Below are positions 36,920 through 54,262 of a stretch of 64,000 nucleotides of DNA, piece after piece. The translations under genes and the position numbers were made by a program. Position 1 is the first letter of the stretch; each line of letters opens with the position of its first letter. The notes below the pieces were generated by a model. That model was not told the origin of the DNA and ran no database searches. It worked only from the letters and a program-made list of their open reading frames with translations. Origin of the DNA: Agrobacterium tumefaciens (lineage in GTDB: Bacteria; Pseudomonadota; Alphaproteobacteria; Rhizobiales; Rhizobiaceae); contig CP048470.1 in the NCBI GenBank assembly GCA_025559845.1, positions 596,001 to 660,000 of the forward strand, read 5' to 3'.

Positions 36920-37942
36920 TTATTTATCCGGCAGGCGGCAGGGCGCGACGGAGCCGCGCACCACCAATTCGGTATCCAGTGTGATGGTTTCAGCAGCACG
37001 TTTGCCGTTCAGACGGTCGACCATCAGCGCCATGGCTTTACGGCCCATTTCCTGTCGGGGCTGACGGACCGTCGTCAGAGGCGGCTCGAAGGCATTAGCA
37101 AAGATAATATCGTCAAAGCCGATGACAGAGATGTCGCTCGGTACGGACAGCCCCCTGGCACGCAACTCACTGATGGCGCCAATCGCCATCTGGTCACTCG
37201 ATGCGAAAATCGCAGTGAAGGAAATGCCGTTTTCGATCAGGGCGGCGATCGCCTGCCGTCCGGCTTCGATGCTGTAATCGCCAGTCACCACCAGTTCATC
37301 GGAGAAACCGATCCCGGCTTCCAAAAGCGCATCCTGATAACCGTCGAAACGTTCTTTCGCCAAGCTCTCCGGGAAAGGACCGGCGAGATGCACGATCCGC
37401 TTGTGACCGGCTTCGATCAGATGCCGCATGGCATTTTGGGAAGCGGCGCGGTTATCGACCTTCACAGTCGGCAGCGTGATACCGACGACGGTTTCCGACG
37501 CAATCACAATCGGCGGCAATGCATCGCCCTGATCAAGAAGGTCTGAAGGGAACTGCCCGGTCATCAGGATAAGACCGTCGGCGTGTTTCTGACGGACCAT
37601 GTCGATGTGGGTCGCAACACGATTTTCATCGTTGCGGGCGTCACCCATGAGAACCTTGTAGCCAGCCTCACCGGCCGCTTCTTCAACACCTTTGTAGATT
37701 TCGAGATAGAACGGGTTGCCGATATCACGAACCAGGAGAATGACGGTGTTGTTGGATTGGCGCCTGAAGCTTGCCGCCTGGGCGTTGGGAACAAAGTTCG
37801 CCTGCCTTACGGCGTCAAAAACCTTTTTTCGAGTTTCCGGGCGCACCTTGTCGGGTTGTTGCAACGCCCGCGATACCGTCGCGATCGAAACGCCGGCGAG
37901 AGCTGCAACTTCTCTGATATTCGAACTTTGGTCTTTGCTCAT
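36920..37942 (-). CDS. LacI-family transcriptional regulator
   Basis: 340 residues from the ATG at 37942. NIREVAALAGVSIATVSRAL (about residues 8-27) is the LacI helix-turn-helix, with hinge helix region QAASFRRQSNN. The core is a sugar-binding domain: VILLVRDIGNPFYLEIYKGV, RIVHLAGPFPESLAKERFDG, FTAIFASSDQMAIGAISELR. It begins one base after the stop of the permease, so it is transcribed within the sugar operon. The dyads upstream of the binding-protein gene (42515-42550) are the likely operators, giving autoregulation with the sugar as inducer. Confidence 0.93.
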   Translation of the reverse strand: MSKDQSSNIREVAALAGVSIATVSRALQQPDKVRPETRKKVFDAVRQANFVPNAQAASFRRQSNNTVILLVRDIGNPFYLEIYKGVEEAAGEAGYKVLMGDARNDENRVATHIDMVRQKHADGLILMTGQFPSDLLDQGDALPPIVIASETVVGITLPTVKVDNRAASQNAMRHLIEAGHKRIVHLAGPFPESLAKERFDGYQDALLEAGIGFSDELVVTGDYSIEAGRQAIAALIENGISFTAIFASSDQMAIGAISELRARGLSVPSDISVIGFDDIIFANAFEPPLTTVRQPRQEMGRKAMALMVDRLNGKRAAETITLDTELVVRGSVAPCRLPDK

Positions 37943-37943
37943 C

Positions 37944-38912
37944 TCAAACACGCAACTGCTTTTGGCGTCCATAAAGCAGCATCAGCGCAAGCAACGTGAC
38001 ACCGAATATGATCTGCCGGGCCCATACATCAAGGTTGAGCGTTATCAGTACGCTTTGCAGAATGGTCAGCGCAACTGCCCCGGCCATGGTTCCGATATAT
38101 CCACCGGCACCGCCGGCAAGAGAGGTGCCACCGATAACCACCGCGATGATGGATGGCAGAACATATTGGTCGCCGACGGAGATGAAGGAAGTACCGGTAT
38201 ATCCAATGACACAGACCCCGGTCAGACCGGCGAACAGGCCCGAAAAACCGTAAAGCAGTGTGCGGATCAACGAGACCGGCAATCCGACAAGTGTAGCCGC
38301 GCGCTCATTTGAACCTACGGCGTAGATGGCGAAGCCGAATGCCGTTCTGCGCAAGACGAACATCATGATCGCTGCAATGCCTAGCCAGACGAAAAGAATG
38401 CCGGGAATGCCAAAAACCAACGGCTTGTTGATGAACCCGGCAAGGAGCGGAGCCGCAGCACCGGAAGGAACACCCTGAGAATAGACGACCAGTCCACCCT
38501 GGATGACGGCTGTCATGCCCAGTGTCATGACAAGTGGTGGGATGCGCACGAAGGTAATGCCGATACCGTTGATGAGGCCGATCAGGAAAGGAATACCACC
38601 GGCGACCAGTATCGCGAGTGGAATGCCAATGTTTTGGCCATTCATCATGTTACCGGCCAGCACTGCACCAAGAGAGATCATGGCGCCGACGGAGAGATCG
38701 ATACCTTCGCGACCGCCGAGGATCACAAGGTTCTGTCCTGCTGCGACAATGCCGAGGATCGCGGCGATCGTCAGCAGTCTGACGATCTGTGAGCCCTGTG
38801 CAAAACCGGGAGACAGCAACTCGCCAAGAAGCAGCAGGAAAGCCGATGCGCCGATAGCAATGGTCAAGGGATCGGTAAGGAGAGATTTGATTTGCAGGCC
38901 CTTATTGGTCAT
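37944..38912 (-). CDS. RbsC-type sugar ABC transporter permease
   Basis: 322 residues with about nine hydrophobic segments. GGREGIDLSVGAMISLGAVL (about residues 67-86) is the strict RbsC signature, and VLPSIIAVVIGGTSLAGGAG is the second conserved block. It pairs with the permease gene directly upstream (one base between stop and start). It forms the channel of the CUT2 importer whose ATPase and binding protein are encoded further upstream in the same operon. Confidence 0.92.
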   Translation of the reverse strand: MTNKGLQIKSLLTDPLTIAIGASAFLLLLGELLSPGFAQGSQIVRLLTIAAILGIVAAGQNLVILGGREGIDLSVGAMISLGAVLAGNMMNGQNIGIPLAILVAGGIPFLIGLINGIGITFVRIPPLVMTLGMTAVIQGGLVVYSQGVPSGAAAPLLAGFINKPLVFGIPGILFVWLGIAAIMMFVLRRTAFGFAIYAVGSNERAATLVGLPVSLIRTLLYGFSGLFAGLTGVCVIGYTGTSFISVGDQYVLPSIIAVVIGGTSLAGGAGGYIGTMAGAVALTILQSVLITLNLDVWARQIIFGVTLLALMLLYGRQKQLRV

Positions 38913-38913
38913 A

Positions 38914-39858
38914 TCAACGCCTCGTCACCAGTACGCCGCCGGCAAGCGCCGTCAGCACGATCAAGCCCTGCACCAGTGTCTGGTACTCGAATGGCAAACC
39001 CGCAAAGAAAATCACATTGCCGATCATGCCAAGGACGAGTGCCCCGGCGATCGATCCCGTCGAGCTGCCGAACCCACCGGAGAGCGCCGTCCCGCCAAGC
39101 ACCACCGCCGATATGGACGACAACGCAAGGCTCGCACCGAGCAGAGGGTCACCCGATGCGGTTTCGCCCGTGAGACACAGTGCCGCCAGTGCCGAAAACA
39201 AACCGGAGATCATGTATGCACCGATGCGAATACCGGAGAGACGCAAGCCTGTCTGGAAGGCGCCGGTACGATTACCGCCGACCGCTAACAAATGGGTATG
39301 AAACGGAATGCGCGACACGATCAGGGTAAAGGCGATCCCGGCAATCAAAACCCACAAGACGAAGGGTAAGCCAATGAAGCTGCGCGAATAGGTCTGCCAA
39401 TAGGCTTCCGGTACGGGAAGCCCGGCCTGCGGCAAAACCCAGATTGCCAAGCCGGCAAAGATGATACCGGTTGCGAAGGTCGTCACGATTGGCTGGAAAC
39501 GCAAGCCGGAAATGAAGAGACCGTTGACCAGACCGCAGAGCAGACCGACGGCAGCACCCGCTGCCATACCAGCGATGACAGCACCTCCAGAGCCACCTAG
39601 CGCGGCAATGACGCTGACGGTCACGACATTGGCGAGCGCCACGATGCTGCCGACCGACAAATCGATGTCTCCCGCCAGGATCACGTAGGTTTGTCCAATG
39701 GCAACCAGGATCAGCGGGAGAAATGTCGTCAGGTTGGATTGCAGTACGGCAGGCTGAACGAAGGACGGCTGCAAAACCGTGTTCACGGCAACAAGGAGGA
39801 CGAGAACGACGAGAGTGATGATCCAGGGTTGCTTGCGCAGAAGGCCGGGGGAAATCAT
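38914..39858 (-). CDS. RbsC-type sugar ABC transporter permease
   Basis: 314 residues. ILAGDIDLSVGSIVALANVV (about residues 60-79) is the family signature and SSISAVVLGGTALSGGFGSS the second block. Its start overlaps the stop of the ATPase gene by four bases. The two permeases differ enough to suggest a heterodimer. Substrate is unknown, but the enzymes in the operon point to a sugar or cyclitol. Confidence 0.92.
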   Translation of the reverse strand: MISPGLLRKQPWIITLVVLVLLVAVNTVLQPSFVQPAVLQSNLTTFLPLILVAIGQTYVILAGDIDLSVGSIVALANVVTVSVIAALGGSGGAVIAGMAAGAAVGLLCGLVNGLFISGLRFQPIVTTFATGIIFAGLAIWVLPQAGLPVPEAYWQTYSRSFIGLPFVLWVLIAGIAFTLIVSRIPFHTHLLAVGGNRTGAFQTGLRLSGIRIGAYMISGLFSALAALCLTGETASGDPLLGASLALSSISAVVLGGTALSGGFGSSTGSIAGALVLGMIGNVIFFAGLPFEYQTLVQGLIVLTALAGGVLVTRR

Positions 39859-41348
39859 GCGGCGTCTCCATAGGCGGCGCGGGTCATGTTGACAGATGTC
39901 ATTTCAGCTCCGGTCAGTTCTGCAGAAATACGCCCGCCGTTGAACACCAGAATGCGGTCGGCATATTCAAGGATCTCAGCGTCTTCCGAGGAGTAGAAAA
40001 GAATGGTCGCACCTGCATCGGCCTGCTGTCGCATCAGCGCAAACAGATCGGCTTTTGCGCCGAGGTCGATCCCTTTCGTCGGGTCATCGAGCAGCAGAAG
40101 TTTCGGCGATGTTGCAAGCCAGCGCGAAATGAAGATTTTCTGCTGATTGCCGCCGGAAAGCGTGCCGATTGGCATGTCCATTCCGGCAAACTTCGTTTTC
40201 ATATCGTCGGCGACTTTTTGCACCTGCGGCTTCAAAGTTGCCGGCCGTATCAGTTTCATTTTCTCGCGTACCATCAGAGCAGCAACGAGATTTTCGAGGA
40301 TGGACCGTCCCTGCAACGACGCATCGCGCCCGCGGTCGCCGGAAACATAGGCAAAGCCATTGTGAACCGCCTGCGAAGGTTTGCCGATCGCAATGGCCTG
40401 CCCTTCGAACTGAATATCTCCGGAAGCGAAGGGATTGGCGCCGAACAGACCTTTCAGCAGCGCAGACTGTCCCTGCCCTTGCAAACCTGCCAAACCAAGG
40501 ATTTCACCCGCAAACGCCTCGAGCGTCACACCACGGACGCCCTCACCGGCTGCATTGTCGACCTTCAAACTCGCCTTTGCATCGAGGCGCCCATGCTGAC
40601 GAGCCGGTGCGGCACGAACATCACCAACCATGTCATGCACAACGGCTTCACGCGTAGTGGTCGACGTATCGAGCTCGGAGATGGTCGCACCGTTTCGCAT
40701 CACAGTGATACGGTCGCAGACAGCAAACACCTCATCGAGACGATGGGATATCATGATGGTGGAGACGCCCTCGGCCTTCTTGGCCTTGAGAATTTCGAAG
40801 AAACGCTGTGACTGACGGCCATCGAGTGCCGCTGTTGCCTCGTCCATGATCATGAGGCTGGCATTCTGAGCGAAGACCTTGAGAATTTCCACGAGCTGAC
40901 GCTGATCAGGCGGCAGGTTACCAACGATCGCATCCGGCTCCAGCCCATCTCCAGCGACACCGTCGAAAAGCGAGATCAGTTTGTCCGTTTCTTCTTTCAG
41001 CGCCGTGCGATCCACGAAAACACCGCGCTTCGGCTCGCGTCCAAGGAAAATATTGTCGGCGACTGAAAGCTGCGGAATGAGGCTCAATTCCTGGTAAAAC
41101 AGGGCGATCCCGGCATTTTCTGCGTCGCGGGGGCTTTTGAAGCGCACCTCGTCGCCATTGAAGCGAATTGTACCGCTGGTGGGCACCACTGCACCTGCAA
41201 CGATCTTGCAAAGCGTACTTTTACCGCAACCGTTCGCACCCAGAAGCGCATGGATTTCACCGCGGCCGACCGTCAGTTTACCGGCAGAGAGCGCACGCAC
41301 GGCGCCAAAATTCTTCGTTATGCCGGCCGCTTCCAAAGCGTTCGCCAT
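39855..41348 (-). CDS. RbsA-type sugar ABC transporter ATP-binding protein
   Basis: 497 residues from the ATG at 41348; 16 extra residues to 41396 have no support. Two ABC domains: Walker A LLGANGCGKSTLCKIVAGAV near residue 35, signature-like LPPDQRQLVEILKVF, Walker B ASLMIMDEATAAL; then a second domain with QGQGQSALLKGLFGANPF, LSGGNQQKIFISRWLATSPK and LLLLDDPTKGIDLGAKADLF. It drives the two permeases downstream. A strong hairpin separates it from the binding-protein gene. Confidence 0.93.
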   Translation of the reverse strand: MANALEAAGITKNFGAVRALSAGKLTVGRGEIHALLGANGCGKSTLCKIVAGAVVPTSGTIRFNGDEVRFKSPRDAENAGIALFYQELSLIPQLSVADNIFLGREPKRGVFVDRTALKEETDKLISLFDGVAGDGLEPDAIVGNLPPDQRQLVEILKVFAQNASLMIMDEATAALDGRQSQRFFEILKAKKAEGVSTIMISHRLDEVFAVCDRITVMRNGATISELDTSTTTREAVVHDMVGDVRAAPARQHGRLDAKASLKVDNAAGEGVRGVTLEAFAGEILGLAGLQGQGQSALLKGLFGANPFASGDIQFEGQAIAIGKPSQAVHNGFAYVSGDRGRDASLQGRSILENLVAALMVREKMKLIRPATLKPQVQKVADDMKTKFAGMDMPIGTLSGGNQQKIFISRWLATSPKLLLLDDPTKGIDLGAKADLFALMRQQADAGATILFYSSEDAEILEYADRILVFNGGRISAELTGAEMTSVNMTRAAYGDAA

Positions 41349-41421
41349 CGCATGTCTCCGAATTGTTCTTGTCATTGGCGAACATCGTAACAACACGCTG
41401 CCCGCAATCGAGATTCCAGAA

Positions 41422-41450
41422 TTCGGGCTGGCTGTTAACGCCAGCCCGAA
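41422..41450 (-). terminator. Intercistronic hairpin between binding protein and ATPase genes
   Basis: TTCGGGCTGGC-TGTTAAC-GCCAGCCCGAA is a perfect 11-base stem starting 7 bases after the binding-protein stop. No U-run follows. Such hairpins protect the upstream message and keep the binding protein in excess over the membrane parts. Confidence 0.7.
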
Positions 41451-41457
41451 GGCGGTC

Positions 41458-42480
41458 TTACTTGAAGAACTCGCCAGCCTGTTCCGGCGTCACTGTTGCC
41501 GTGACGGACCAATAGCCCGGTTTGCCTTCAGCGGCCTTGATGTTGTCCGCAAGGTTCTCATTGTTCACGAACGGGATCGGAATGTAGATGGCGTTCCCGT
41601 AGGTGCCGCCAAAGATACCGTCCTTGAACTCCTTGCCCTGAAGCTTCAACACCGCAACGTTGAGCGCACTGGCCATGACGCCGGGAGGGTTGACCGATGC
41701 ACCGGAATTGAACTTTTCCGCTTCCCAACGGGTCATGAAGTCCTTGCGGATTTCCCCGGTGGCAGCAATGTCCTTCGCCTTGCCTGCAGATTCGATGGCG
41801 CGCCAAGCGCCATCAGCCATGCCGTCCTGCACCCATACACCGCTAATGTCGGGATAAGTCGCAAGAAGGTTTTGCATGGCCTGCTGGCCCTGCGCCTGAT
41901 CCCAGCTCGCATTGGCTTCGTTCAGGACCTTGATGTCAGGATACTTTTTGAAAACTTCGCGGTAACCGGCGACACGCGCTTCGTTTGCAGGGTTGCCAGC
42001 GATGCCGTTGATGGCAACAACGCTTCCCTTGCCCTTCAGCGTATCCGCAAGCCACTGGGCCGACTGGGCTGCCCAGGCCTTCTGGTCGATACCGACATAG
42101 ATCGCATCTTTCGATGAAACCTCTGCGTCGGTGGCGATGACGAGAATATTACGTGCCTTCGCCTGGGCAAAGACTGGATCAAAAGCAGTTGGGCTACCCG
42201 GGTTGATCAGGATTGCATCAACGCCCTGGTTCATGAAATTGCGGATGTGTCCGATCTGGCCCTGAACGTCGACATTGCCGCTCTGAACAACCACTTCGAC
42301 CTTGACGCCCTTTTCACCCCACGCCTTCGCGGCAGCCTGAGCTTCCTCGATCATCTGCGTGCGCCATTCGCTTCCGACGAACGAATTGGAAAGACCGATC
42401 TTGAAGCTCTGTTCCTGCGCGTGCGCGGACGTGCCCGCTGCCAGCATCATCGCGGCAGCAGCCATCAAATGTCTAAACAT
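41458..42480 (-). CDS. Periplasmic sugar-binding protein of the second RbsABC-type importer
   Basis: 340 residues from the ATG at 42480, with GGAGGAG 8-14 bases upstream. Signal peptide MFRHLMAAAAMMLAAGTSAHA (given as ending AHA at residue 21; 20 residues or fewer shown in motif terms: FRHLMAAAAMMLAAGTSAHA). The mature protein is a type 1 periplasmic binding fold: GLSNSFVGSEWRTQMIEEAQ, IRNFMNQGVDAILINPGSPT, NILVIATDAEVSSKDAIYVG, VVAINGIAGNPANEARVAGY. First gene of the operon behind the LacI-type operators. The ligand could be a sugar, glycoside or cyclitol. Confidence 0.92.
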   Translation of the reverse strand: MFRHLMAAAAMMLAAGTSAHAQEQSFKIGLSNSFVGSEWRTQMIEEAQAAAKAWGEKGVKVEVVVQSGNVDVQGQIGHIRNFMNQGVDAILINPGSPTAFDPVFAQAKARNILVIATDAEVSSKDAIYVGIDQKAWAAQSAQWLADTLKGKGSVVAINGIAGNPANEARVAGYREVFKKYPDIKVLNEANASWDQAQGQQAMQNLLATYPDISGVWVQDGMADGAWRAIESAGKAKDIAATGEIRKDFMTRWEAEKFNSGASVNPPGVMASALNVAVLKLQGKEFKDGIFGGTYGNAIYIPIPFVNNENLADNIKAAEGKPGYWSVTATVTPEQAGEFFK

Positions 42481-42514
42481 GAAATTTGCTCCTCCAAGCA
42501 ACGGAAATCGATAA

Positions 42515-42550: not shown

Positions 42551-42850
42551 TAGATGTGTCAATCCCTGACCTCTTTTTTCCCCACCCGTAGTTCGGCGCC
42601 TTCGAGCCGCATGTCTCATTGTCACGGCGAGACACCCAAATCCGTGCGTTTTGGAGGGAGATATGCGTTGTAAGACGGAGTTTTTGATAGGGAGCACCAA
42701 ATTCACAAGGGTAAGTTTTTATGCCTGATAGAGCACTAAAATCTTCCGCTTGGGTCTTGTTGCGTGACCGGCTACCTTTTGATTTCAGACGGAACTCAAA
42801 TCAAATGTCATCGGTTAGCAAAGCAAAAAGATTGCGGGCGGAGCAAGGCA
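42551..42850. other. Intergenic stretch between sugar operon and hydrolase gene
   Basis: Apart from the possible 21-codon frame at 42663 I see no feature here. It holds the promoter of the plus-strand hydrolase gene. Composition is more AT-rich than the neighbours. Confidence 0.5.
42663..42728 (+). CDS. Possible 21-residue small protein or leader peptide
   Basis: ATG at 42663 follows GGAGGGAG by 3-4 bases, a strong ribosome site, and runs MRCKTEFLIGSTKFTRVSFY plus Ala to a TGA at 42726. No family is recognised. It could be a leader peptide for the hydrolase gene downstream or an accident; without conservation data it stays a guess. Confidence 0.2.
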   Translation: MRCKTEFLIGSTKFTRVSFYA

Positions 42851-43897
42851 TTGAGCAAGGAAGAACCAAGGCTTGCGTGGTGGATGGTGCGATGGTTGTT
42901 ACTGGCGCTCGCCATTCCCGGAGCGTCACAGTTGGCGCTGGCCGAAGCGCCACGGCTCGGCCCCTTCGAACTGCCCAGACCACGCGCGCTGACTATTTTC
43001 CAAAATGAGACCGCCTTCGACGCCAGAGAGGCCCTCAACGGCTCCTTCTCTTCTTCCCAAGCCTGTGCCGACATTCCCTATGGGCTGTGGATTGAAGTCG
43101 AGGGCAAAGGCGACTGCATCAGATATTATCCTCACGGATTGGCGGATGGTGAAAACCGCAAGGTTCTGGTCTATTTCGGCGGCGATGTAATGTTGCGCAA
43201 CTCAAAAGGTGTGCGCTTCATCACCGGCTCCTACATCCGGCAATCGCCCGCAACAATTGCAGCCGAAATGGCGGAATGGTCAAAAAAGGCGGGGCATCCC
43301 GTAATTTTCCTAGCACGGCCGGGAATATATGGTTCTTCTGGCGACCACAACAACCGCCGGCACCGGCGCGAGCTTTCCCTGATGAGCCAGGCACTCGACA
43401 GGATCAAACAGAAGCACAATGTATCGTCCTTCATTTTGACTGGACATTCAGCCGGTGGTCAGATTGTAGCGGGGCTTTTGAACCAGCGCACCGATGTTTC
43501 TGCGGCTGTCATCACGTCCGGACTGGTCTCGGTGAAACAGGTATCCAAATTCTGGGAACGGCGGCGTCGCCTTCCCGGCAAACTTCTCTACAATGCCGCA
43601 GCCTTCTATGATCCCGTAGACGAGATTTCCAACGTTTCGACCGCCGACCGCCCGGATATTTATGTCCTCTCTGATCCTGAAGATCGTGTCGTGCCATTCT
43701 TCAGTCAGCTATTCTACGTCAGGCGCTTGCGTACAGCGGGCTTCGAGCCGCACCACCTCTATGCTCATGCGACTGATCCACAGCGTCACATCCTAGCCTA
43801 CCACGGCCGCCTCGCAGCCGCATTGATCTCTAAGGGACAATCGACCGCCGAAATTCGCCGTGCCGTCCACGAGATGGATCTCGAACAGTTCAAATAA
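42851..43897 (+). CDS. Exported alpha/beta-hydrolase-like protein
   Basis: 348 residues if the TTG at 42851 (GGAG 7 bases upstream) is the start; an ATG at 42884 also yields a signal peptide, and an ATG at 42764 gives a longer, unlikely N-terminus. The signal is WWMVRWLLLALAIPGASQLA then LAEA. HNVSSFILTGHSAGGQIVAG contains GHSAGG, the nucleophile elbow with catalytic Ser; VLVYFGGDVMLRN may form the oxyanion region, YVLSDPEDRVVPFFSQLFYV has the acid Asp, and a late His (DPQRHILAYHG) completes a triad. It is an esterase or lipase-like enzyme of the cell envelope, natural substrate unknown. Its stop lies two bases from the stop of the convergent ligase fusion. Confidence 0.78.
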   Translation: MSKEEPRLAWWMVRWLLLALAIPGASQLALAEAPRLGPFELPRPRALTIFQNETAFDAREALNGSFSSSQACADIPYGLWIEVEGKGDCIRYYPHGLADGENRKVLVYFGGDVMLRNSKGVRFITGSYIRQSPATIAAEMAEWSKKAGHPVIFLARPGIYGSSGDHNNRRHRRELSLMSQALDRIKQKHNVSSFILTGHSAGGQIVAGLLNQRTDVSAAVITSGLVSVKQVSKFWERRRRLPGKLLYNAAAFYDPVDEISNVSTADRPDIYVLSDPEDRVVPFFSQLFYVRRLRTAGFEPHHLYAHATDPQRHILAYHGRLAAALISKGQSTAEIRRAVHEMDLEQFK

Positions 43898-43899: not shown

Positions 43900-46800
43900 T
43901 CATGCGGCGAAACTGCCATCGGCAGTCGTCTTCAGCCAATCGACCATTTCATGCACTCCGGCGCTGTTCGAACCTTTGAAGAGTACAACGTCCATATCCT
44001 CCAGCTCTTTACGAAGAACGCCCTTTAGGGCGTCGCACGAGCCCACTTTTTTGCCGCGTAAAGAGACGGGAAGCGCACGCCAGAAATCTTCGTACAGATG
44101 ACCGATAACATAGACCCGGTCGATTGAACTCTCTTTCAACACGGTAGCGAGTTCGGTGTGGTAGCCGGAAGCCCCAGGCCCTAGCTCCGCCATCTCGCCG
44201 AGGACTGCAATCTTTCGCCCACCCCCTTCGTGGTCGTTCAAGCGTTCGAGGGCGGCGCGCATTGAGCCGGGATTGGCGTTGTATGCGTCATCGATCATTA
44301 TCAGTCGCCGGCCATCGAGCGACAAAGATGTTTCCTCGCCACGCCCAGGAAGCGCCGAGAAGCTCTTGAGCTTTGCAATAGCTGTCTCAAGGGGGTAACC
44401 GAGCGCCGAAAAGGCAGCAAGAACAGCAAGGCCGTTGAGTGCCATGTGCCGGCCAGCCGCGCCAACGCTATAGGTAATGTCTCCCCCCTCTATGTGGGCG
44501 CAGGCATCGCCGCTCCCCGCATCGTATCGTGTCAGTTGGAAAGCACAGCCATCCGACGTGCCGTAGGTGACAATATCGAGCCCACGGCTGCGGGCTGCAT
44601 TATGAACGATTTCCCATTCCAGCATATCGCGATTGAGCACTGCCTTGTCGCCCGGAGCCATGCCGAGGAAGATTGCGCTTTTCGTTTTTGCGATATCCGA
44701 AATCGTACTGGACTCGTCGAGGTGGGCCGGCAGGATATTGGTAAAGACGGCAACCTTTGGACGCGCCATCCGTGCGCTGACCCCCATTTTACCCACTGCA
44801 AGTTCAAGCACGACATGGGGCGTATCCCACGGGATCGAGGCGAGGTTCCAGGCAACGCCGGTTGGCAGGTTTGCATTGTGGTGGCTTTTGCCCACGCGCC
44901 CCCACGAAGAAAGAGCATGGGCGAGCATGCTAACAACGGTGCTCTTGCCGGCACTTCCCGTCACACCTAGCACGGTGCCACTCATCTGACTCCGCGCATA
45001 ATTCCCCAGAGCAAGGACGGCGCGCATGCCGTCATCGACCTGCAGCACCGGCGCCGGATGCGCTTGCGCAAGGGTCGCATCCGTCGTGATGAGGCCTGCC
45101 GCCGTCCGCATCCCCCTCACGGTATTTACGGGAACACCGGCATCCCCCCTTTGACTGCGTACAACCACAAGCGCACCCGGCTGCATGGCTGGCGCATAGG
45201 TGCAGAGCCCGTTTGGAGTCCAGTCCGCCGGCGGTCGACGAATCCAACGACCGCCGGTCGCAGCCTCGACATGCGCCGCCGTCCATTGCCGCTCCTGATG
45301 AAAGACTTCGGGCTTTGTCCGAACAGCGCGTTGACAAACAAGCTCGCGAAACGACGCCTGCTCCCCGAGGTAGGTGAGATAGGCGACAAAACCGGAAAGA
45401 TAATGTTCGACGTCATCGATACGCACGCGGAAAGCCTGGTGACGAATGAAAAATGATCCGACTATGCGGTCGGGTTTTCGGCAGTACATGGCCATTTCCG
45501 GCCAGAAATGGCCGTTCAGCAAATGCTGCACACGTTTTTCAAGCGCCCGCTCGAAATGTGCAAGATCGATGTCCTCGAGGAGGTGGTTCAGTTGAGGTTC
45601 GGCTGCTATCCGCGACAGCGTTTGACGCGCCGCCATCATCAGCTCAAGCAAGGTGGGAAACGTCGTGATCCGGTTTTCGACAAAGTCGAGATAGCCGGCA
45701 ATATTGCGAATAGCGAAGCGGAAATAACGTTCTTCCGGTCTATGGCGGGTCAGTTCATTGACGCAATAGCCAAGCCAATGGTCGTGGTGTTTCCAATAGT
45801 CCTGGGCAATGAAGTACTCAAAGGCTTTCTCAACGGTCGCGAGCCACACCGGATCGAGCGTGAGAGCGTAAAGGCGCATGAGCCCGAACGCTGCCTCGCC
45901 CTCATAATAGATGGTCCGGTATTTTTGCTTGATAGCGAGATCCGGATAATTGAGGACATGCACGAAAGACCCGGTTTTGCAGTCCTGCATGTGTCGGATG
46001 CCATGAGCAAGTTTGTCGGTCAGGCAGCGCCATTGGTTGCCACCGGTTGCCTTCATGTATTGAACGAACGCCAGTATCGCTACGGCATTCCCGCCCAACT
46101 TGATCTCGTTGTCAGCCTCCACGACAAAGGCAGCCTCCTGTCCATCGGGAAGGACGGCGGACCTAATGAGCGTTTCAGCCAGGTATTGGAGCGCGCGCTC
46201 GATAGCGTCTTTGAGGAAAGGAGAACCCGTCACCTCCCACGCTTCAATCATCGCATAGGTCGTACTGGCATGACGTAACGCATTGTAGGCATGGATGCGC
46301 CTGTCGAAGCAAGCGTGATAACCGTAGACGAAACTGCCATCATGGTTGACCTGGCGGGCAAGATAAGCGGACGAATCCTGCACCAAGGATAGGATCACGC
46401 CTTTATCAAGTCGTTCAACCGTCCGTCTGCCTGTCTCAAGGCCCTTTCCGTCGAGCCGATGCAATCGGCCTGCCTTGTCGCAGAACACGCCCTTTGTCTG
46501 CAGAAGGTAAATCGTTTCCTCATCTTTAAACGCCGGCGGTGACAGGTCCTGAAAACGGGCCGCGGCGTAAAGCCTGAAGTTGTTTTCGTTCACCACGGCA
46601 TGACTGACGCTGTTACCGCCATAAAGCATTGCATTGGCATTCAATTCCTGTTCGGTGAACGCGAAGCGGAAATCTGGATCGAGAGCCAGTCCGAAACGGA
46701 AATAGTTGCGTTTGACCTTGCCAAGTAGAGCTCGCAAGCGCTTCCAACTCGTTGCCTCGGCAACATCTATCCAGTCCACCCGAAGCCAATCTCCTTTGAT

Positions 46801-47049
46801 GCCCTCGGTCTTCATCGTAGCGAGCAGTGAGGTTATTCCCTTTTGCCACGCAGATTCGAATGAAGGACCGGATGCGTTGATGACACGCGCACGTCTTTCG
46901 CCATCCGATACCGAAAAGAACAAAGTTACGGCTGGAAGCGGCGTTTCCAAAGGCTGAATGCCACACCGCAGGAACGTTCTGATGCGAGCGAGTTTTTCTT
47001 TCACGTCCTGCGGCTCGATTACAGATCTCGCAGCGGTTTCAACGTTCAC
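43900..47049 (-). CDS. Fusion of helical toroid-like region and MurF-like ligase, coupled to the secretion operon
   Basis: 1049 residues from a GTG at 47049 that overlaps the end of the adaptor gene and has GGGAGG 5-10 bases upstream; the longer frame to 47172 is inside that gene. Residues about 150-600 are helix-rich with repeated aromatic/His motifs (FVYGYHACFDRRIHAYNALR, YYEGEAAFGLMRLYAL, DYWKHHDHWLGYCVNELTRH), reminiscent of six-hairpin/alpha-alpha-toroid enzymes; I do not recognise a family with certainty. From about 620 a MurF-like ligase follows: GTVLGVTGSAGKSTVVSMLA (P-loop, about 690-709), NILPAHLDESSTISDIAKTK, IDDAYNANPGSMRAALERL and LGEMAELGPGASGYHTELA. MurF adds D-Ala-D-Ala to the wall precursor in the cytosol, but the usual UDP-sugar domain looks degenerate here. 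It may ligate amino acids to a surface polymer or protein. Function unknown. Confidence 0.85.
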   Translation of the reverse strand: MNVETAARSVIEPQDVKEKLARIRTFLRCGIQPLETPLPAVTLFFSVSDGERRARVINASGPSFESAWQKGITSLLATMKTEGIKGDWLRVDWIDVAEATSWKRLRALLGKVKRNYFRFGLALDPDFRFAFTEQELNANAMLYGGNSVSHAVVNENNFRLYAAARFQDLSPPAFKDEETIYLLQTKGVFCDKAGRLHRLDGKGLETGRRTVERLDKGVILSLVQDSSAYLARQVNHDGSFVYGYHACFDRRIHAYNALRHASTTYAMIEAWEVTGSPFLKDAIERALQYLAETLIRSAVLPDGQEAAFVVEADNEIKLGGNAVAILAFVQYMKATGGNQWRCLTDKLAHGIRHMQDCKTGSFVHVLNYPDLAIKQKYRTIYYEGEAAFGLMRLYALTLDPVWLATVEKAFEYFIAQDYWKHHDHWLGYCVNELTRHRPEERYFRFAIRNIAGYLDFVENRITTFPTLLELMMAARQTLSRIAAEPQLNHLLEDIDLAHFERALEKRVQHLLNGHFWPEMAMYCRKPDRIVGSFFIRHQAFRVRIDDVEHYLSGFVAYLTYLGEQASFRELVCQRAVRTKPEVFHQERQWTAAHVEAATGGRWIRRPPADWTPNGLCTYAPAMQPGALVVVRSQRGDAGVPVNTVRGMRTAAGLITTDATLAQAHPAPVLQVDDGMRAVLALGNYARSQMSGTVLGVTGSAGKSTVVSMLAHALSSWGRVGKSHHNANLPTGVAWNLASIPWDTPHVVLELAVGKMGVSARMARPKVAVFTNILPAHLDESSTISDIAKTKSAIFLGMAPGDKAVLNRDMLEWEIVHNAARSRGLDIVTYGTSDGCAFQLTRYDAGSGDACAHIEGGDITYSVGAAGRHMALNGLAVLAAFSALGYPLETAIAKLKSFSALPGRGEETSLSLDGRRLIMIDDAYNANPGSMRAALERLNDHEGGGRKIAVLGEMAELGPGASGYHTELATVLKESSIDRVYVIGHLYEDFWRALPVSLRGKKVGSCDALKGVLRKELEDMDVVLFKGSNSAGVHEMVDWLKTTADGSFAA

Positions 47050-48241
47050 GTAACGCCTCCCGAGCCTTGTTGAAGGGCTTGATAAGATATTCCAGCACGG
47101 TCTTTTCGCCTGTGTGGATGTCAACCGTTGCGACCATGCCCGGTACGATTGGAAACTCCCGGCCGGCCGCATTGATCAGCGCGTCCTTCTCCGTCTTGAT
47201 AAAAACGCGGTAATAATAAATCTCCCGGTCGACCTCATCCTGAATGGTATCGGGTGAGATGGTCGTCACCTGCCCTTCGAGACTACCGTAAACAGCGTAG
47301 TCATAAGCACTGATTTTGACGCTCGCGCGCTGTCCAGGATGTATGTAGGCGATATCGCGAGGGGAGATCCGCGCTTCGATGAGAAGCTCATCACCCAGCG
47401 GAATGATATCCATGAGCTTGCCGTTTGGCGGCACCACACCACCGATGGTCGAAACTTCGATGTTCTTGACGATACCGCGCACCGGGGAACGATGGGTGAG
47501 GCGTGAAAGGCTGTCTGTGCGACCAGTTACGACAGGCGAAAGAGAATTGACCTCCGCGTTCATTTTGGTCAATTCTTCACGGGCCTGCACCACATATTCC
47601 GATTTGATCTCAACCTTCTTGAGTTCCATTTCCACGATCTGTCTGCGCAGGCGAATAACCTCCACGTTGCTCGCAGCGCCAACAGCCCGGAGCTCTTCGT
47701 TAAGTGTCAACTCGCTGCGGACTAGAGCAAGGGATTCCTCAACCCAGTGCAAGGACTCCTCCAGAGCGCGCTTTCGCGCCGTGTAAAGCTCTGTCTCGGC
47801 GGTGATGAGCGCGGGATAGGCATCGAGTGCCGGCGGAAAGGCAAGTGATGTGCTATTAACCTCTGCTTCGAGCCGTGCAGACGCGGCAAGTGCGGCCCGA
47901 TATTTGGCTGCACTTTCTTCCACGTCAGATGCACTTTTGGTGGGATCAAGTTGAGCAAGGATCTGTCCCGGCTCGACAACCTGGTCTTCACGGACATGCA
48001 GCGTCGCAAGAATACCGCCTTCAAGAGACTGAATTACCTGCTCTCGGCTGGTCGGCACCACACGGCCATCCCCACTGGAAACTTCATCGAGCGTGGCGAA
48101 ATAAGCCCATATCAGCAGGACAGCCAAGAGGACGACGAAGACCTGCACGACACGTGTCGATCGGGACAGATTTCGTCCATCGTCGTCGCCAAACACCCAC
48201 CCTGTCTGCCCGGAGAACTCGCGATTGCCGACTGTCGCCAT
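47039..48241 (-). CDS. HlyD-family type I secretion periplasmic adaptor
   Basis: 400 residues. After a short cytosolic N-terminus one membrane helix (VVQVFVVLLAVLLIWAYFAT, about residues 31-50) is followed by GDGRVVPTSREQVIQSLEGG, the lipoyl-like half with LHVREDQVVEPGQILAQLDP, a long helical hairpin (about 90-240), and the C-terminal barrel with THRSPVRGIVKNIEVSTIGG and IVPGMVATVDIHTGEKTVLE. It bridges the inner-membrane exporter and the TolC-like protein. Its ATG is immediately next to the exporter's stop, and its end overlaps the ligase-fusion start. Confidence 0.94.
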   Translation of the reverse strand: MATVGNREFSGQTGWVFGDDDGRNLSRSTRVVQVFVVLLAVLLIWAYFATLDEVSSGDGRVVPTSREQVIQSLEGGILATLHVREDQVVEPGQILAQLDPTKSASDVEESAAKYRAALAASARLEAEVNSTSLAFPPALDAYPALITAETELYTARKRALEESLHWVEESLALVRSELTLNEELRAVGAASNVEVIRLRRQIVEMELKKVEIKSEYVVQAREELTKMNAEVNSLSPVVTGRTDSLSRLTHRSPVRGIVKNIEVSTIGGVVPPNGKLMDIIPLGDELLIEARISPRDIAYIHPGQRASVKISAYDYAVYGSLEGQVTTISPDTIQDEVDREIYYYRVFIKTEKDALINAAGREFPIVPGMVATVDIHTGEKTVLEYLIKPFNKAREALRER

Positions 48242-50491
48242 TCATATCTCCCCGATTGTCTTAAATGGGAATCCCGCCACGCTGGCGCCTTTGTTTACGC
48301 TGGTCGCTTTCCCTCTTGCGATGTTTGGGGGTACGACCTTGTTCACGCCCCGCAACGTGTTGAGGATTTCCTCTTTGCCACCGTCGAGCAATACGTGACC
48401 GCTTTCGACAACCAGAATGCGGTCGACCAGTTCGAGAACACGCATTCGATGCGTGGCAACAACGACTGTTTTTTCTTCGTTCCATACCCTGAAACGGGCA
48501 ATGAACTGGCGTTCGGTGGCCTCATCCATCGCAGCGGTCGGCTCATCCAGGAGAACAACGGAGGGATCTCGAATGAGAAGCCGTGCCAATAGCAAGGCCT
48601 GTTTTTGTCCACCAGAGAGCCCCCGCCCCCCTTCAAGAATGGGATGATCAAGGCCACGTGGAAGCTTACGCACGAACTCATCAGCACCGGTCATGGCGAG
48701 CGCGTCGAGCAACACCGTTTCTGGAGCATGCAGTGCGCCAAGGGTGACATTCTCACGGATCGTGCCGTGGAATAGCCGCGTATCCTGGGTCAGTAGTCCT
48801 ACATTGCGACGGACATCTGCAGGATCGATCTGTGACAAGGCGAGATCGTCAAGCATGACTTCTCCGGCAGCGGGCTCCACCATGCCGGCCATGGCCATCA
48901 GCAGGGTGGATTTTCCCGCACCGTTCTTTCCTAATATTGCGATCTTTTCACCTGGAGATACTGCCAGATCGGCGACAGCAAGCGCGGGTTTGCCCGCCCC
49001 ATTTCCGTAGTGGAACGCCGCTGCCTTCAACCGGTAAGCGCCTCGAAGCGTAGGCGCGCTGACCCGCGTTTCGGTTTCCGGATGGTCCGAAGGCATGCGC
49101 AGGATCGCATCGATACTGTTAAGACCGACGCGCGCCTGTTGAAATCTACCAAGGATCTGCGTGAGCTGCGCCATCGGTGCCATCATACGTGAACCGAGGA
49201 TGGAGCAGGCGACAAGTGAGCCGGTAGTCATGTCTCCTTCCATAACGATTGGCGCACCGACAAAGACGACGGCTGCAAAAGTGCCGGTCTGGACAGTGTG
49301 GCTCCAGGCGGAAAGACCATTAGTGATGGCGCGCAACCGCAATTGGCCATCAGCCGACACGGCGTTGTAATGGTTCCATCGCTGCTGGAAATGATCTTCT
49401 GCCTGCAGGGTTTTAATATCCTCGATCCCCTGCACCGCCTCGACAAGCATGGCGTTGCGCAGCGATGATTCCCGCATGGCCTCGTTTGCGGCCGCACGCA
49501 ACCTGCCTTGGACCAGGAGGCCGGGCAACAGCAGGAACAGCAACGCTGCTACAGGAATGGCCACAAGTGGCCCGCCGATCAGCCAGAAAATAAAGAGAAA
49601 CAGGAGGAAAAACGGAAGATCGGCAACAGCAGCCACGCTGGTGGACGTCAGCAGTTCGCGAACCTGCTCAAGATCTCGCAATTGTGCGATGAAAGTGCCC
49701 GTGGATGTTGGGCGTGCCTGGTTCTTTACGCGTAACGCATGGCCAAAAACGAGATCGGAAACGCGCATATCTGTACGCTTGCCCACAATATCGATGATAC
49801 GAGTGCGCAAGCGTCGCATGATGAAATCGAAAAGCGCTGCGAGCAGCACTCCAACGAAGAGCACGTAAAGCGTGTTGAACGATTTTGAGGGTACTACCCT
49901 GTCGTAGACCTGCATGGAAAACATAACGCCCGCCAGCGCCAGAAGATTGGCAACCAGCGAAGCCAGCATGACATGTCCGTAGGAGCCGATGTCGCGCAAG
50001 GCTATGACGCGGAACCAGTGTTCGCGATACGGAGCAATGTAGTCGTCAACGCGTTCATCGACCGTTCCACGTTGCGGCCGGGCCACGACCACGAAATCGG
50101 TCTGCGACAAAAGCGCATCAACCGGGAGCGTCGCTGCACCACCACCCTCGCCGCTGACAACCACAGAGGTATTCCGGTCGGAAGAAACCGCCGTAACGAC
50201 ACCCACCGCACCGTCGGCCAGTTGGAGGATCAGCGGGAGGCGCCAGCTCGTTAGAAGACGTGGCGAGGGCGCAGTCTTTTTGATCCTCAGCCCCAACTTG
50301 CCGGCCATACGCGCAAGCCCGTCTTCCGCATTGGCGACGTGCAGTGTACCGGCGAGCTGTTGAAGCCCGCCGGCAGAAAACGGCACGCCATAGTGACGCG
50401 CTACATATTGAAAGGCTTCGCTCCAACCTTTCATATCGATACCGGTCACGTCGGCATCTGGATGTTCATTCGTCATGTCGGAAAGAGGCAT
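48242..50491 (-). CDS. Type I secretion ABC exporter (LapB/BapB type)
   Basis: 749 residues with AGAGGA upstream of the ATG at 50491. Residues about 25-150 are a C39-like domain without the catalytic Cys, as in LapB-type exporters of large adhesins. Six membrane helices follow (from HVMLASLVANLLALAGVMFS to about residue 450). The ATPase has ILGKNGAGKSTLLMAMAGMV, GRGLSGGQKQALLLARLLIR, SVVLLDEPTAAMDEATERQF and VVVATHRMRVLELVDRILVV. It moves the unfolded adhesin encoded just upstream out of the cytosol. The last 35 residues beyond the ATPase are a basic tail. Confidence 0.95.
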   Translation of the reverse strand: MPLSDMTNEHPDADVTGIDMKGWSEAFQYVARHYGVPFSAGGLQQLAGTLHVANAEDGLARMAGKLGLRIKKTAPSPRLLTSWRLPLILQLADGAVGVVTAVSSDRNTSVVVSGEGGGAATLPVDALLSQTDFVVVARPQRGTVDERVDDYIAPYREHWFRVIALRDIGSYGHVMLASLVANLLALAGVMFSMQVYDRVVPSKSFNTLYVLFVGVLLAALFDFIMRRLRTRIIDIVGKRTDMRVSDLVFGHALRVKNQARPTSTGTFIAQLRDLEQVRELLTSTSVAAVADLPFFLLFLFIFWLIGGPLVAIPVAALLFLLLPGLLVQGRLRAAANEAMRESSLRNAMLVEAVQGIEDIKTLQAEDHFQQRWNHYNAVSADGQLRLRAITNGLSAWSHTVQTGTFAAVVFVGAPIVMEGDMTTGSLVACSILGSRMMAPMAQLTQILGRFQQARVGLNSIDAILRMPSDHPETETRVSAPTLRGAYRLKAAAFHYGNGAGKPALAVADLAVSPGEKIAILGKNGAGKSTLLMAMAGMVEPAAGEVMLDDLALSQIDPADVRRNVGLLTQDTRLFHGTIRENVTLGALHAPETVLLDALAMTGADEFVRKLPRGLDHPILEGGRGLSGGQKQALLLARLLIRDPSVVLLDEPTAAMDEATERQFIARFRVWNEEKTVVVATHRMRVLELVDRILVVESGHVLLDGGKEEILNTLRGVNKVVPPNIARGKATSVNKGASVAGFPFKTIGEI

Positions 50492-50548: not shown

Positions 50549-53500
50549 TCAAACTACATTCGAAGCAGTGTTATTCCATTCATCTTCAGTTACGAGGTGT
50601 CCAAACGGATCGAGTGGGACGTCCGACGTGTCTACGGCAACCATCGTGTCGAGAGTTTCCCCTGTGATCGTATGGTCGGCATCAGCATCGACCGGCTCGG
50701 ACAGCGACGTCAGCCCGTCGAGGGAAACAGTCAAATCCTCGGCGCTCTCTTCGACAAGTTCGGAAAGATTATCCTGACTGTCAGGCTGCGCATCCGACGG
50801 AAGAGCATCATCGCCGACGGTCGCGTCAATGGTGTTCAGACCGATGAAATCATCTGCCGCGAACATCATTGCCTGATCGGGAACACCCGCGCCTGATGGC
50901 TCCACGTTAACAACCAGAGACGACTGCTCAATAGCACCAGACGGATGGACAAGCTGATATTCAAATGTGTCCGTTTGCGCTTCGGCGAAATGCGCCAAAT
51001 CAGACGCCGGCGCATAACTGTAATTTCCGTCGGCATCGACAGTGAGGGTGCCAAATTCGCCCTCGATGGTCATCGCGCCGATGACCTTCACGTAACTCGT
51101 GCCATCAAAGATCTCGAACGCCGTAAATGTGGAGCCCGTTTCGTCATTGGCGAGCAGATTGCCACTGTCGCCGACCCCATTCTCGAATTCGAACTGATCC
51201 GTGTAGGTGACGTCAATGTCGGTGGCGATCGTAGCGGAGACATTAACTAGCGAGCCGGTCAGTGTTGAGTGGATACGATAGTTGCCCGCCGTAAAATCGA
51301 CCTCGGAAAGATCAATCGATGCCACGACACCAAGACCACCTACAAGAACATTGAAGGTATCGGTGGCGACCGTTTCCCACGTGCCAGGGGCAGCCTCTCT
51401 TTGAAGCGAGACAGCCCCACTGGATAGGGCCGCAAGCAGCACTGACACTGTGACACTACCTGAAATCACCATGCTGTCGGTGATGACGAAGGTCGCGCTG
51501 TCATATGTGCTCGTTTGCCCGAGACTGCCCGAGAGCAATGTCGAACCGCTAGCCGTGAAGAAATCGGTGTCCGTCACGTTGTCCCATACGACGGTTGCCT
51601 CAGCACTATCGCCTGTCGCTGCGAACTCAAACACTGCCGGAAGCCCCGGATCAGTGCCATTCCATGTCATGGTGACGCTATCACTGCCGATCTGCACGTT
51701 CAGCGTTGCGGTGCCTGTGTTACCGGTGGCATCTACGAGCGTGTATTCGAACTGGTCGACCTGACCTATTCCTGCACCATTCGCGAGGGGCGTATAGGTG
51801 AAGGTACCATCGGGGAGGATCGATAACTCTCCAAAGTCGCCCTGGATAACGGTTCCTGCGGGATCAACTGACTGACCATCAACGCTCTGCACGGTAGTGC
51901 CCGTTGGCACGTCATCATTATCGATGACGTTTCCACTCACTTCGACAGCTTCGTATCCTCCGGCCTCCGTGAAATCGTAATCGGTAGCCGTCACTGTCAG
52001 GGTACCACCCACGCCGGCGCCAAGCAGCCCATCATAGCCCATGAAGGCCCGATATTCTCCCGCATCGAGTCCCTGTACGGTACCGCTCGCTCCGCCGAAA
52101 AGATCAAGGGACAGAATCGTGGCGTTCGTTTGACCATCAATACTGGTCCACTGTTGTGTCGTCGCATCCCACTTCTGTACGACGAGATTGTAATCGCTGA
52201 GAACACCTGCCCCGAGAATGCCGTTGAAATCGAAAGCCAAGTCCTGCGTGTGACCACTTTCCACTTCAAACTCTACGGTATCGGCAAATAGCTGCAGATC
52301 GATCCCCGCAAGACTGACGACAGCCAAGTAAGTCTCGCTGCCATGCGGTACGTCCTCGGTAACGGTCGGCAGAATATTCACCTGGGCAGATGCCACATCG
52401 TCCGTCGGCTCGAGATCTGCATCGGCGTCCGCATCTGCATCTGCGTCGGCATCGGCATCAGCGTCAGCATCTGCATCCGCGTCAGCGTCGGCATCTGCAT
52501 CGGCATCTGCATCGGCGTCGGCGTCAGCATCAGCATCCGCATCGGCATCTGCATCCGCGTCAGCATCTGCATCCGCGTCGGCATCTGCATCAGCGTCAGC
52601 ATCTGCGTCAGCATCGGCATCTGCATCCGCGTCAGCATCAGCATCTGCATCCGCGTCAGCATCAGCATCTCCATCTGCATCCGCATCCGCATCAGCGTCT
52701 GCGTCAGCATCTGCATCCGCGTCAGCGTCAGCATCGGCATCTGCATCTGCATCTGCATCGGCATCTGCATCTGCATCTGCATCGGCGTCAGCATCGGCAT
52801 CGGCGTCAGCATCGGCATCTGCATCCGCGTCGGCGTCAGCATCCGCATCCGCGTCAGCATCCGCATCTGCATCCGCGTCGGCGTCAGCATCTGCGTCTGC
52901 GTCAGCATCTGCATCTGCATCCGCATCCGCATCTGCATCCGCGTCAGCATCCGCATCTGCATCGGCATCTGCATCTGCATCCGCATCAGCATCCGCGTCC
53001 GCATCAGCATCAGCATCTGCATCCGCATCAGCATCTGCATCCGCGTCGGCATCTGCATCTGCATCGGCATCGGCATCGGCATCGGCATCCGCATCGGCAT
53101 CTGCATCCGCGTCAGCGTCGGCATCTGCATCTGCATCTGCGTCGGCGTCAGCATCAGCATCCGCATCTGCATCCGCGTCAGCATCTGCATCCGCGTCGGC
53201 ATCTGCATCAGCGTCAGCATCGGCATCTGCATCCGCGTCAGCATCAGCATCCGCGTCAGCATCAGCATCTGCATCCGCGTCAGCATCAGCATCTGCATCC
53301 GCGTCAGCATCCGCATCTGCATCGGCATCTGCATCTGCATCTGCATCTGCATCGGCATCTGCATCGGCATCAGCGTCAGCATCTGCATCTGCATCAGCAT
53401 CGGCATCGGCATCGGCGTCAGCGTCAGCGTCAGCATCGGCATCAGCGTCCGCATCTGCATCCGCATCAGCATCCGCGTCCGCATCAGCATCAGCATCTGC

Positions 53501-54262
53501 ATCTGCATCCGCATCTGCATCCGCGTCAGCATCCGCATCAGCGTCGGCGTCAGCATCAGCATCAGCATCGGCGTCCGCATCAGCGTCAGCGTCAGCATCC
53601 GCATCTGCATCAGCGTCGGCGTCGGCATCTGCATCTGCATCAGCGTCAGCATCTGCATCTGCATCCGCATCAGCGTCTGCATCCGCGTCGGCGTCAGCAT
53701 CCGCATCAGCGTCAGCATCCGCGTCGGCGTCAGCATCTGCATCCGCATCAGCGTCGGCATCTGCATCTGCATCAGCGTCCGCATCTGCATCGGCATCTGC
53801 ATCGGCATCAGCATCCGCGTCCGCATCAGCGTCCGCATCGCCATCATCTCCCGATGAACTGCCACCGATGGCAGCACCACCTGCGAGAAGTCCGAGCGCA
53901 GCTAATCCGAGAACGGAGCCACCACCGCTCGCAGAAGCACCAACAAGTTGATCGACACCTTCAATCTGCGAAAACTCGAAATCTGCCAAACCATCGCTGT
54001 TTTCGCCAAGCCAAAGATTTCCATTCTCGTCCTCAAGCACGAGTTGGCTATGTTCGCCGTCAACCTCTCGATAGAAATTTCCGATCCGGACGGTCTCACC
54101 GGACCGCATGCGAAGCAAGAGGTCATCTCCATCACGAACGAAGTCGGCGACATCATTGCGGGACGCGCGAATTTGCACGAGGCTCGGCTCATCAATCGTC
54201 AATTTGTCGAGTGGAACGGTCCGAGAATTTCCGGCGGCCATATCGGTTACGATTGCAACCAT
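50549..54262 (-). CDS. BapA-like secreted surface protein with 475-residue Asp-Ala repeat
   Basis: 1237 residues from the ATG at 54262, with AGGAGG 8 bases upstream. Residues 1-110 match the BapA prefix-like N-terminal domain ([40 protein letters not shown]), followed by a Gly/Ala-rich hydrophobic stretch ([19 protein letters not shown]). Residues 142-616 alternate Asp and Ala without a break except Gly at 531. Residues 617-1237 hold VCBS/Ig-like modules: [20 protein letters not shown] with [20 protein letters not shown], and a second, [20 protein letters not shown] with [20 protein letters not shown]. No RTX GGxGxD repeats are seen; the acidic C-terminus probably bears the type I secretion signal. 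It is most likely a biofilm/attachment protein kept at or released from the surface. Many family members are much longer. Confidence 0.88.
52415..53839 (-). repeat. Hexanucleotide-periodic coding repeat (Asp-Ala x 237 plus Asp)
   Basis: 1425 bases with strict 6-base periodicity encode (Asp-Ala)237-Asp on the minus strand, with one Gly codon (52670-52672). Both Asp codons and all four Ala codons are used in irregular order, so the DNA is degenerate while the protein is constant. The other frames therefore stay open too and give spurious long frames on both strands. Confidence 0.97.

Follow-up and report, generated by a model that had tools for sequence, protein, structure and literature searches.

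In staphylococci, adhesins built on dipeptide repeats are decorated by dedicated loci, SdgA/SdgB (PMC7029136) and GtfC/GtfD (PMC5230774). GtfC, a 538-aa protein encoded directly downstream of pls and not predicted by CAZy to be a glycosyltransferase, is needed for full glycosylation of Pls, which is glycosylated by GtfD weakly (COL) or not at all (1061) when GtfC is mutated (PMC5230774). The adhesin BapA of the soil bacterium Paracoccus denitrificans contains 891 Asp-Ala repeats and migrates in gels at >300 kDa against a calculated 212 kDa; its authors could not exclude posttranslational modification and were doubtful that surface hydrophobicity could be explained by bare Asp-Ala repeats (PMC5588039). 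In the cyanophycin synthetase CphA1, a Mur-like domain attaches Arg to the side chains of Asp and the N domain grips the polymer via charged patches (PMC9262961). Here we examine a stretch of 64,000 nt from Agrobacterium tumefaciens (contig CP048470.1, positions 596,001–660,000; hereafter the window, to whose numbering coordinates refer), in which a gene at 43,900–47,049 of the minus strand fuses a 590-aa module to a MurF-like ligase and adjoins genes for a type I secretion system (T1SS) and for an adhesin with a long Asp-Ala tract. Stalks of Asp-X dipeptides are found on surface adhesins of widely differing bacteria; relatives of the module recur beside them, and we give an even chance to the reading, taken as a whole, that the fusion is a cytosolic enzyme modifying the Asp-Ala tract of the adhesin from its own operon.

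Organization of the fusion gene and its operon

The fusion gene encodes 1049 aa, starts with GTG, has a Shine-Dalgarno-like GGGAGG six bases before this codon and overlaps by 11 nt the gene for the HlyD-type T1SS adaptor (47,039–48,241, minus; TIGR01843, 315.4 bits, above cut-off). An earlier note, drawn from the sequence alone, had recorded the length, start codon, ribosome site and overlap of this gene, together with the MurF motifs and the degenerate UDP-sugar domain of its product, and all of these features were confirmed. A homology search of the whole genome (G000; 6.3 Mb, 4 contigs) indicated that the gene is single-copy. The operon continues upstream, on the same strand, with genes for an LssB-type T1SS ABC transporter (48,242–50,491; TIGR03375, 789 bits, above cut-off), a BapA-like adhesin (50,549–54,328; NF045619, 372.2 bits, above cut-off; PF22783 BapA_N at residues 27–137) and a TolC-type outer-membrane channel (54,857–56,314; TIGR01844, 226.3 bits, barely above the cut-off of 225.15). 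The window operon thus holds a complete T1SS set, from transporter, adaptor and channel to an adhesin with a BapA prefix, with all members above curated cut-offs.

The coordinates of the adhesin are those of its open reading frame (ORF) as listed, and an ATG is present at residue 23. Shortly after the BapA_N prefix there begins an Asp-Ala tract of 478 residues (residues 162–639; 52,412–53,845, minus), which we propose as the substrate. Both Asp codons and all four Ala codons are used in it, which argues for selection at the protein level over simple DNA slippage. Long open frames on the plus strand, antisense to the tract (e.g., 52,343–53,857, 504 aa), are a by-product of the repeat and could mislead gene callers.

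Asp-X tracts accompany the module

The finding of a (GD)n tract in an autotransporter encoded beside a distant stand-alone module (locus L010, then also L009 and L011) prompted a survey of Asp-X tracts in module loci. We took the best 80 of 566 relatives confirmed in a contig scan, a choice that over-represents close relatives, Variovorax above all, and scored a locus as positive when an ORF of the stretch read contained an Asp-X run of at least 16 residues. Negative loci were extended where the contig allowed it and positive ones were not; gene calls were greedy ORFs, with some GC-rich genes mis-framed. Tracts were present in 57 of the 80 loci and absent from 8, the other 15 being undecidable with a contig end within 9 kb, so that 57 of 65 decidable loci were positive. 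Asp stays fixed throughout the tracts, and X is Ala (7875 occurrences), Ser (251), Gly (58) or Thr (29), counting only the four commonest of each locus.

Chance association of neighboring genes was rejected as an explanation, because none of 20 random stretches from the same genomes (one of 20 kb each, 400 kb in all, shorter than some of the extended loci) contained a tract. Likewise, no run of at least 16 residues was found in ten BapA-type adhesin loci from genomes where the module was not found, one of them having a run of 12 residues. This second control is weaker than the random one, since seven of the ten loci derive from NF045619 matches below the family cut-off, which was passed only in the window's own genome (1/289), and several are truncated where the stretch or contig ends and so may have a tract further out; the other three derive from PF22783 matches above cut-off. 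In the reverse direction, a 200-aa DA-tract query against 151 genomes of the family matched 23 of them (E 1e-5), including eight of the nine that carry the module.

The earlier note had coupled the fusion to type I secretion, and this coupling extends beyond local chance: LssB- and HlyD-like matches occur together in 62 of the 80 module loci (up to 10 kb on each side) and in 49 of the 63 that have a Mur homologue, and the fusion is therefore not found mostly far from secretion genes, which the note had named as the outcome that would speak against its proposal. By stricter adjacency rules, a HlyD gene lay directly upstream on the same strand in 22 of the 80 loci and none was close in 22; the T1SS genes were downstream on the same strand in 27 loci and downstream and convergent in 8, with TolC directly upstream in 1. 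Nevertheless, the more constant partner of the module is the Asp-X dipeptide tract, not the secretion system.

The tract proteins are of unrelated kinds, with a BapA_N domain (L110), a LapA retention module (L053), DUF4214 (L052), RTX repeats (L069) or an autotransporter barrel (L129); no such domain was matched in the scan of those from L046, L066 and L080. In a plasmid of Staphylococcus haemolyticus (L199), pls (448 Asp-X residues) is followed by a module gene of 538 aa and by a gene annotated as Mur ligase family protein, and in a plasmid of S. epidermidis, sdrF (372 Asp-X residues) is followed by the module and a glycosyltransferase gene. The module of a Sulfitobacter plasmid is convergent with the gene for a BapA-prefix protein with 266 Asp-X residues. 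Besides the tract, we found no feature common to the BapA_N, LapA, DUF4214, RTX, autotransporter, Pls and SdrF types. We consequently rejected a tie of the module to T1SS as such, given its autotransporter and sortase-anchored partners, as well as a tie to BapA-type adhesins as such, given the other adhesin types served and, as a weak control, the ten tract-free loci of BapA type without the module.

The module is also patchily distributed, being matched in 9/151 genomes of the family (E 1e-80) and 2/397 of the order sample (E 1e-20), and 54 records of it are from plasmids. This pattern, together with its sugar-enzyme-like fold (see below), could be explained if the module acted on an unrelated surface polysaccharide and merely travelled with adhesin islands; this we consider very unlikely, in that the Asp-X tract is the feature common to three export routes and two phyla.

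A stand-alone module with a predicted epimerase-like barrel

Using residues 1–640 of the fusion as query, with 8000 candidates scored, we found 1224 homologues. Among the best 120 of these, the module occurs as a stand-alone protein of about 580–600 aa or fused to a MurF-like ligase, to that ligase and a PF00768/PF13354 domain, to a PF14398-type ATP-grasp, or to PF09587 plus Mur. We take PF14398 to be the YheC/YheD-type ATP-grasp, PF09587 a PGA_cap/CapA-like domain, and PF00768/PF13354 S11 DD-peptidase-like domains. In addition, a methyltransferase is fused to the module in L053, and a divergent branch of modules is fused to PF09924 or PF13480. The gene order in L030 is TolC, adhesin, LssB, HlyD and module, followed by a gene on the other strand, with no ligase recognised beside the module; there, and in L129 and L131, the module is the sole enzyme of this sort recognised beside the tract gene. 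The N-terminal 590 aa constitute a family in their own right, found also in clusters without a recognised ligase.

The fusions to, and neighbors with, YheC/YheD-type ATP-grasp and PGA_cap/CapA-like domains would suit a scheme where the tract is a primer on which ATP-grasp, Mur and CapA partners grow poly-amino-acid side chains, yielding a capsule-like polymer rooted in the adhesin. However, the five-gene operon of the window has neither ATP-grasp nor CapA, and a Mur homologue is found in 43 of the 57 tract-positive loci as against CapA-like matches in 11 and YheC/D-like matches in 7 of the 80 loci; such priming thus appears quite improbable.

The earlier note had described the first 600 residues or so as helical and toroid-like. 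For residues 212–568 (45,346–46,416, minus), the predicted fold is the (alpha/alpha)6 barrel of AGE / cellobiose 2-epimerase enzymes; residues 1–211 (46,417–47,049, minus) are, at the fold level, a putative AMMECR1-like alpha/beta domain. The structure comparison was done by VIA-align, so a family absent from its listing is still possible. Sequence kinship with the AGE / cellobiose 2-epimerase superfamily is not firm: PF07221 was touched by one of 12 module members (E 0.12, a weak match), hhalign of the module against the AGE family gave a weak match (probability 11.8%, E 0.0025), and the alignment of the module gave no useful match when searched against Pfam and against PDB sequences. The window protein also differs from the superfamily by the added AMMECR1-like N-terminal domain. 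AGE / cellobiose 2-epimerase enzymes use a catalytic His pair (PMC5726027). Invariant residues of the module include His260, His364, His424 and His549, as well as E135, R209, E385, D423 and D545/D546.

The window module is 38% identical over 499 aa to that encoded after pls in L199 (E 1.6e-115). The staphylococcal module is putatively GtfC, judging from its position, its length and the name that it bears, which is the one given for GtfC homologues in PMC5230774. In both cases the gene lies directly behind that of an Asp-X (SD/DA) repeat adhesin, and both proteins have 538 aa; GtfC (SACOL0051, from pls-gtfC-gtfD) differs from the window protein in the lack of a fused ligase, in its glycosyltransferase partner, in the acceptor Ser of the SD repeats, and in its sortase-anchored Gram-positive substrate (PMC5230774). 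The homologue supports, by analogy, an involvement of the module in modifying SD-repeat adhesins.

From this likeness, the window module could be the GtfC-like part of an Asp-X glycosylation machine, with the ligase elaborating the sugar (e.g., attaching a peptide to an aminosugar or a uronic acid) and not acting on the Asp side chain. The joint action of GtfC with the glycosyltransferase GtfD on Pls, the glycosyltransferase gene after the sdrF-module pair of S. epidermidis, and the sugar-epimerase/glycosidase fold predicted for the barrel all agree with this route, whereas most tracts are almost pure Asp-Ala, without an acceptor hydroxyl, and GtfC itself is not classed as a glycosyltransferase by CAZy (PMC5230774). 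On balance, we consider glycosylation rather unlikely, although neighboring genes were annotated only in part and a glycosyltransferase may lie elsewhere in the cluster or genome.

A second, divergent family of modules (24% identical, over 1200 homologues) was observed in L057 (positions 18,743–20,599 of that locus, minus) and in L171, the latter with three tandem copies, accompanied by a Mur-like gene of its own and by Asp-rich proteins. Its members were found beside Asp-rich proteins in two genomes only (L057; L171/L172, about 9 kb apart), too few for counting, and the family was matched in 1/398 genomes of the phylum sample.

A MurF-like ligase lacking the docking motifs

Residues 588–1040 of the fusion (43,930–45,288, minus) correspond to a MurF-like ligase with a degenerate UDP-sugar domain. 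A Pfam scan of the entire protein returned Mur_ligase_M (103.6 bits) and Mur_ligase_C (60.7 bits) above cut-off and nothing else. The ligase shares with MurF the central and C-terminal domains, the P-loop and the conserved Glu/His/Lys positions, and an alignment showed that the core positions, for which we assume the catalytic roles of their MurF counterparts, are conserved in at least 97% of 92 fusions. The window protein has the sequence DDAYNANP, and YNANP is kept in 79/92 fusions, the motif D[DE]xYNANP being presumably specific to MurF. Conversely, the motifs DSR and DGHDF of domain 1, which we take to dock UDP-MurNAc-tripeptide, are absent from the window protein and from all of the 92 fusions (0/92). 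Both are present in the genome's own MurF, encoded by a separate gene whose product is 34% identical over the ligase part and keeps the canonical UDP-sugar motifs. The window ligase also falls short of two curated MurF cut-offs (254.3 bits against 544, and 247.9 bits against 288.6) and is joined to an unrelated 590-aa module. We therefore rejected the possibility of a plain MurF paralogue on the basis of the missed cut-offs and the lost UDP motifs.

Some module copies are fused to, or adjoined by, S11 DD-peptidase-like domains that carry SxxK and KTG motifs (e.g., the tail of P0031). These domains, and the MurF-specific motifs of the ligase, would be expected if the enzyme made a modified peptidoglycan precursor or a wall-linked anchor for the adhesin, without acting on the adhesin itself. 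The loss of the UDP-MurNAc docking motifs from every fusion, the separate MurF in the genome and the presence of the module with Asp-X tracts even without a recognised ligase make this most improbable. Of the roles suggested in the earlier note, the one that now fits best is the attachment of a peptide-like group to the exported adhesin, and a wall precursor or wall anchor has less support.

The nearest parallel for such chemistry is CphA1, where a Mur-ligase-like domain also activates Asp side-chain carboxylates on an Asp-rich chain held by another domain; however, CphA1 builds its own poly-Asp backbone by means of an ATP-grasp domain (PMC9262961). The chain in the window is ribosomal, the window protein contains no ATP-grasp domain, and its match to the cyanophycin synthetase profile is weak (21.8 bits vs. 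a cut-off of 850). The closest parallel in gene content is P. denitrificans, in which a T1SS adhesin with a very long Asp-Ala tract also has an adjoining module gene (L050), the module match coming directly after a TolC match and next to the T1SS genes. Here the module, a CapA-Mur gene and the hydrolase (see below) are separate genes, and the word "ligase" occurs 0 times in the main text of PMC5588039. Literature searches on Mur ligases with YheC, toroid, ATP-grasp or adhesin modification, and on Pden_2408–2410, found no such system, and in open-licence papers we came across no account of a version with a ligase, nor of a link between the module and Asp-Ala tracts. The earlier note, too, knew of no described system of this design; the staphylococcal relative GtfC takes part in modifying an SD-repeat adhesin.

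Proposed modification of the Asp-Ala tract

We consider it highly probable that the protein acts on the Asp-X tract. Mur-like ligases activate carboxylates and, with the docking motifs lost, the catalytic motifs kept and the ligase fused to an Asp-X-associated module, amidation of the tract Asp is the simplest reading; granted action on the tract, an amide on Asp seems rather likely. If so, the retention of MurF-specific motifs suggests D-Ala-D-Ala or a similar amine, for which we see a little less than an even chance. In the reaction that we infer from these data, the AMMECR1-like/AGE-like module (residues 1–590) would recognise and/or first process the dipeptide tract, and the MurF-like ligase would phosphorylate Asp side-chain carboxylates with ATP and then join an amine, with D-Ala-D-Ala or a related small peptide as the foremost candidate. 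The modification would take place in the cytosol, prior to export and on a still unfolded adhesin, which LssB/HlyD/TolC would then export, leaving the tract as an anchor-proximal stalk on the surface. More speculatively, an exported alpha/beta hydrolase or a HELFH protein (both described below) may finish or trim the product outside.

Several observations weigh against the modification of the tract by this route. Eight of the 65 decidable loci (L022, L023, L037, L057, L060, L072, L089 and L090) have no Asp-X run of at least 16 residues; two of them, L022 and L023, carry the full fusion and an adjoining TolC-like gene with no HlyD homologue or tract in the stretches read. As for others of the eight, the contigs of L037 and L072 end soon after TolC, L057 has a DDADSDDD repeat in place of the tract, and a second module on the same contig as L089 does have a tract. 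The module of Acinetobacter baumannii comes after a type I secretion protein in which a regular expression found no tract. In the reverse test, 15 of the 23 DA-tract genomes had no module match at E 1e-80, and four of the seven such loci that were read have a run of at least 16 residues, two of them in short (about 140 aa) proteins with mixed X and two with 18 residues in all; a module is thus the stricter predictor of a tract than a tract is of a module. YNANP is missing from four of six other Mur partners looked at, making a single universal amine unlikely, and the attached group may differ between lineages. The sole experimental homologue, GtfC, enhances O-glycosylation of Ser, and residues with a hydroxyl are absent from (DA)n; the reaction must therefore be a different one, unless the module plays only a helper role. 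Lastly, the gel shift of an acidic protein such as P. denitrificans BapA needs no modification, and the chemistry of the proposed reaction, including Asp as acceptor, the choice of amine and the order of events, is one that we infer.

The short proteins with mixed X are from L192 and L195 (genomes G051 and G143, with no module match) and are composed nearly entirely of Asp-X pairs in which X varies widely (DNDFDIDIDADIDQ...).

In a bolder version, which we regard as improbable, a MurF re-aimed at protein would place D-Ala-D-Ala, or a similar D-amino-acid peptide, on hundreds of tract Asp as pseudo-stem peptides, within a wider decorating system. The S11 DD-peptidase domains that accompany some copies could trim the pseudo-stems, and transpeptidases could cross-link them to peptidoglycan or to each other, covalently anchoring the adhesins; both are conceivable because the tract adjoins the anchor to the envelope in the adhesins of BapA type, in Pls/SdrF and in the autotransporters read. 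This system would be built around the AMMECR1/AGE-like module as its shared core, with exchangeable Mur, ATP-grasp, CapA, methyltransferase and glycosyltransferase partners, and would serve Asp-X stalks in Gram-negative and Gram-positive bacteria.

The occurrence of the enzyme core with aspartate-repeat adhesins of distant bacteria points to a widespread, little-studied protein modification. If the stalks are enzymatically amidated, the adhesin at the cell surface would differ from that read from the sequence: its charge, its binding of calcium, its resistance to proteases and its anchoring would all be altered. A peptidoglycan ligase would then have been recruited for protein modification, and a large family now named after glucosyltransferase, after MurF, or as hypothetical would gain a function. 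P. denitrificans, for which deletions of bapA and bapBCD already exist, offers a direct test system (PMC5588039).

Other genes around the module

Convergent with the fusion gene, a gene at 42,764–43,897 (plus) encodes a predicted exported alpha/beta hydrolase with a GHSAGG motif. It is a recurrent neighbor, with homologues in 15/85 loci examined, including that of P. denitrificans; in L089 the homologue is fused to an S11-like domain. Another protein of 310–375 aa, apparently secreted, recurs beside module genes in 6/85 loci (L036, L043, L053, L057, L069 and L089); the L053 copy has a HELFH metallopeptidase-like motif, and the two copies scanned gave no Pfam match.

Elsewhere in the window, and unrelated to the fusion, an operon at 33,668–42,501 (minus) appears, by eye from the ORF list, to be of the sugar-type ABC transporter kind, with genes for a substrate-binding protein, an ATPase, two permease-like proteins and a LacI-like regulator, together with xylose-isomerase-like and oxidoreductase-like genes.

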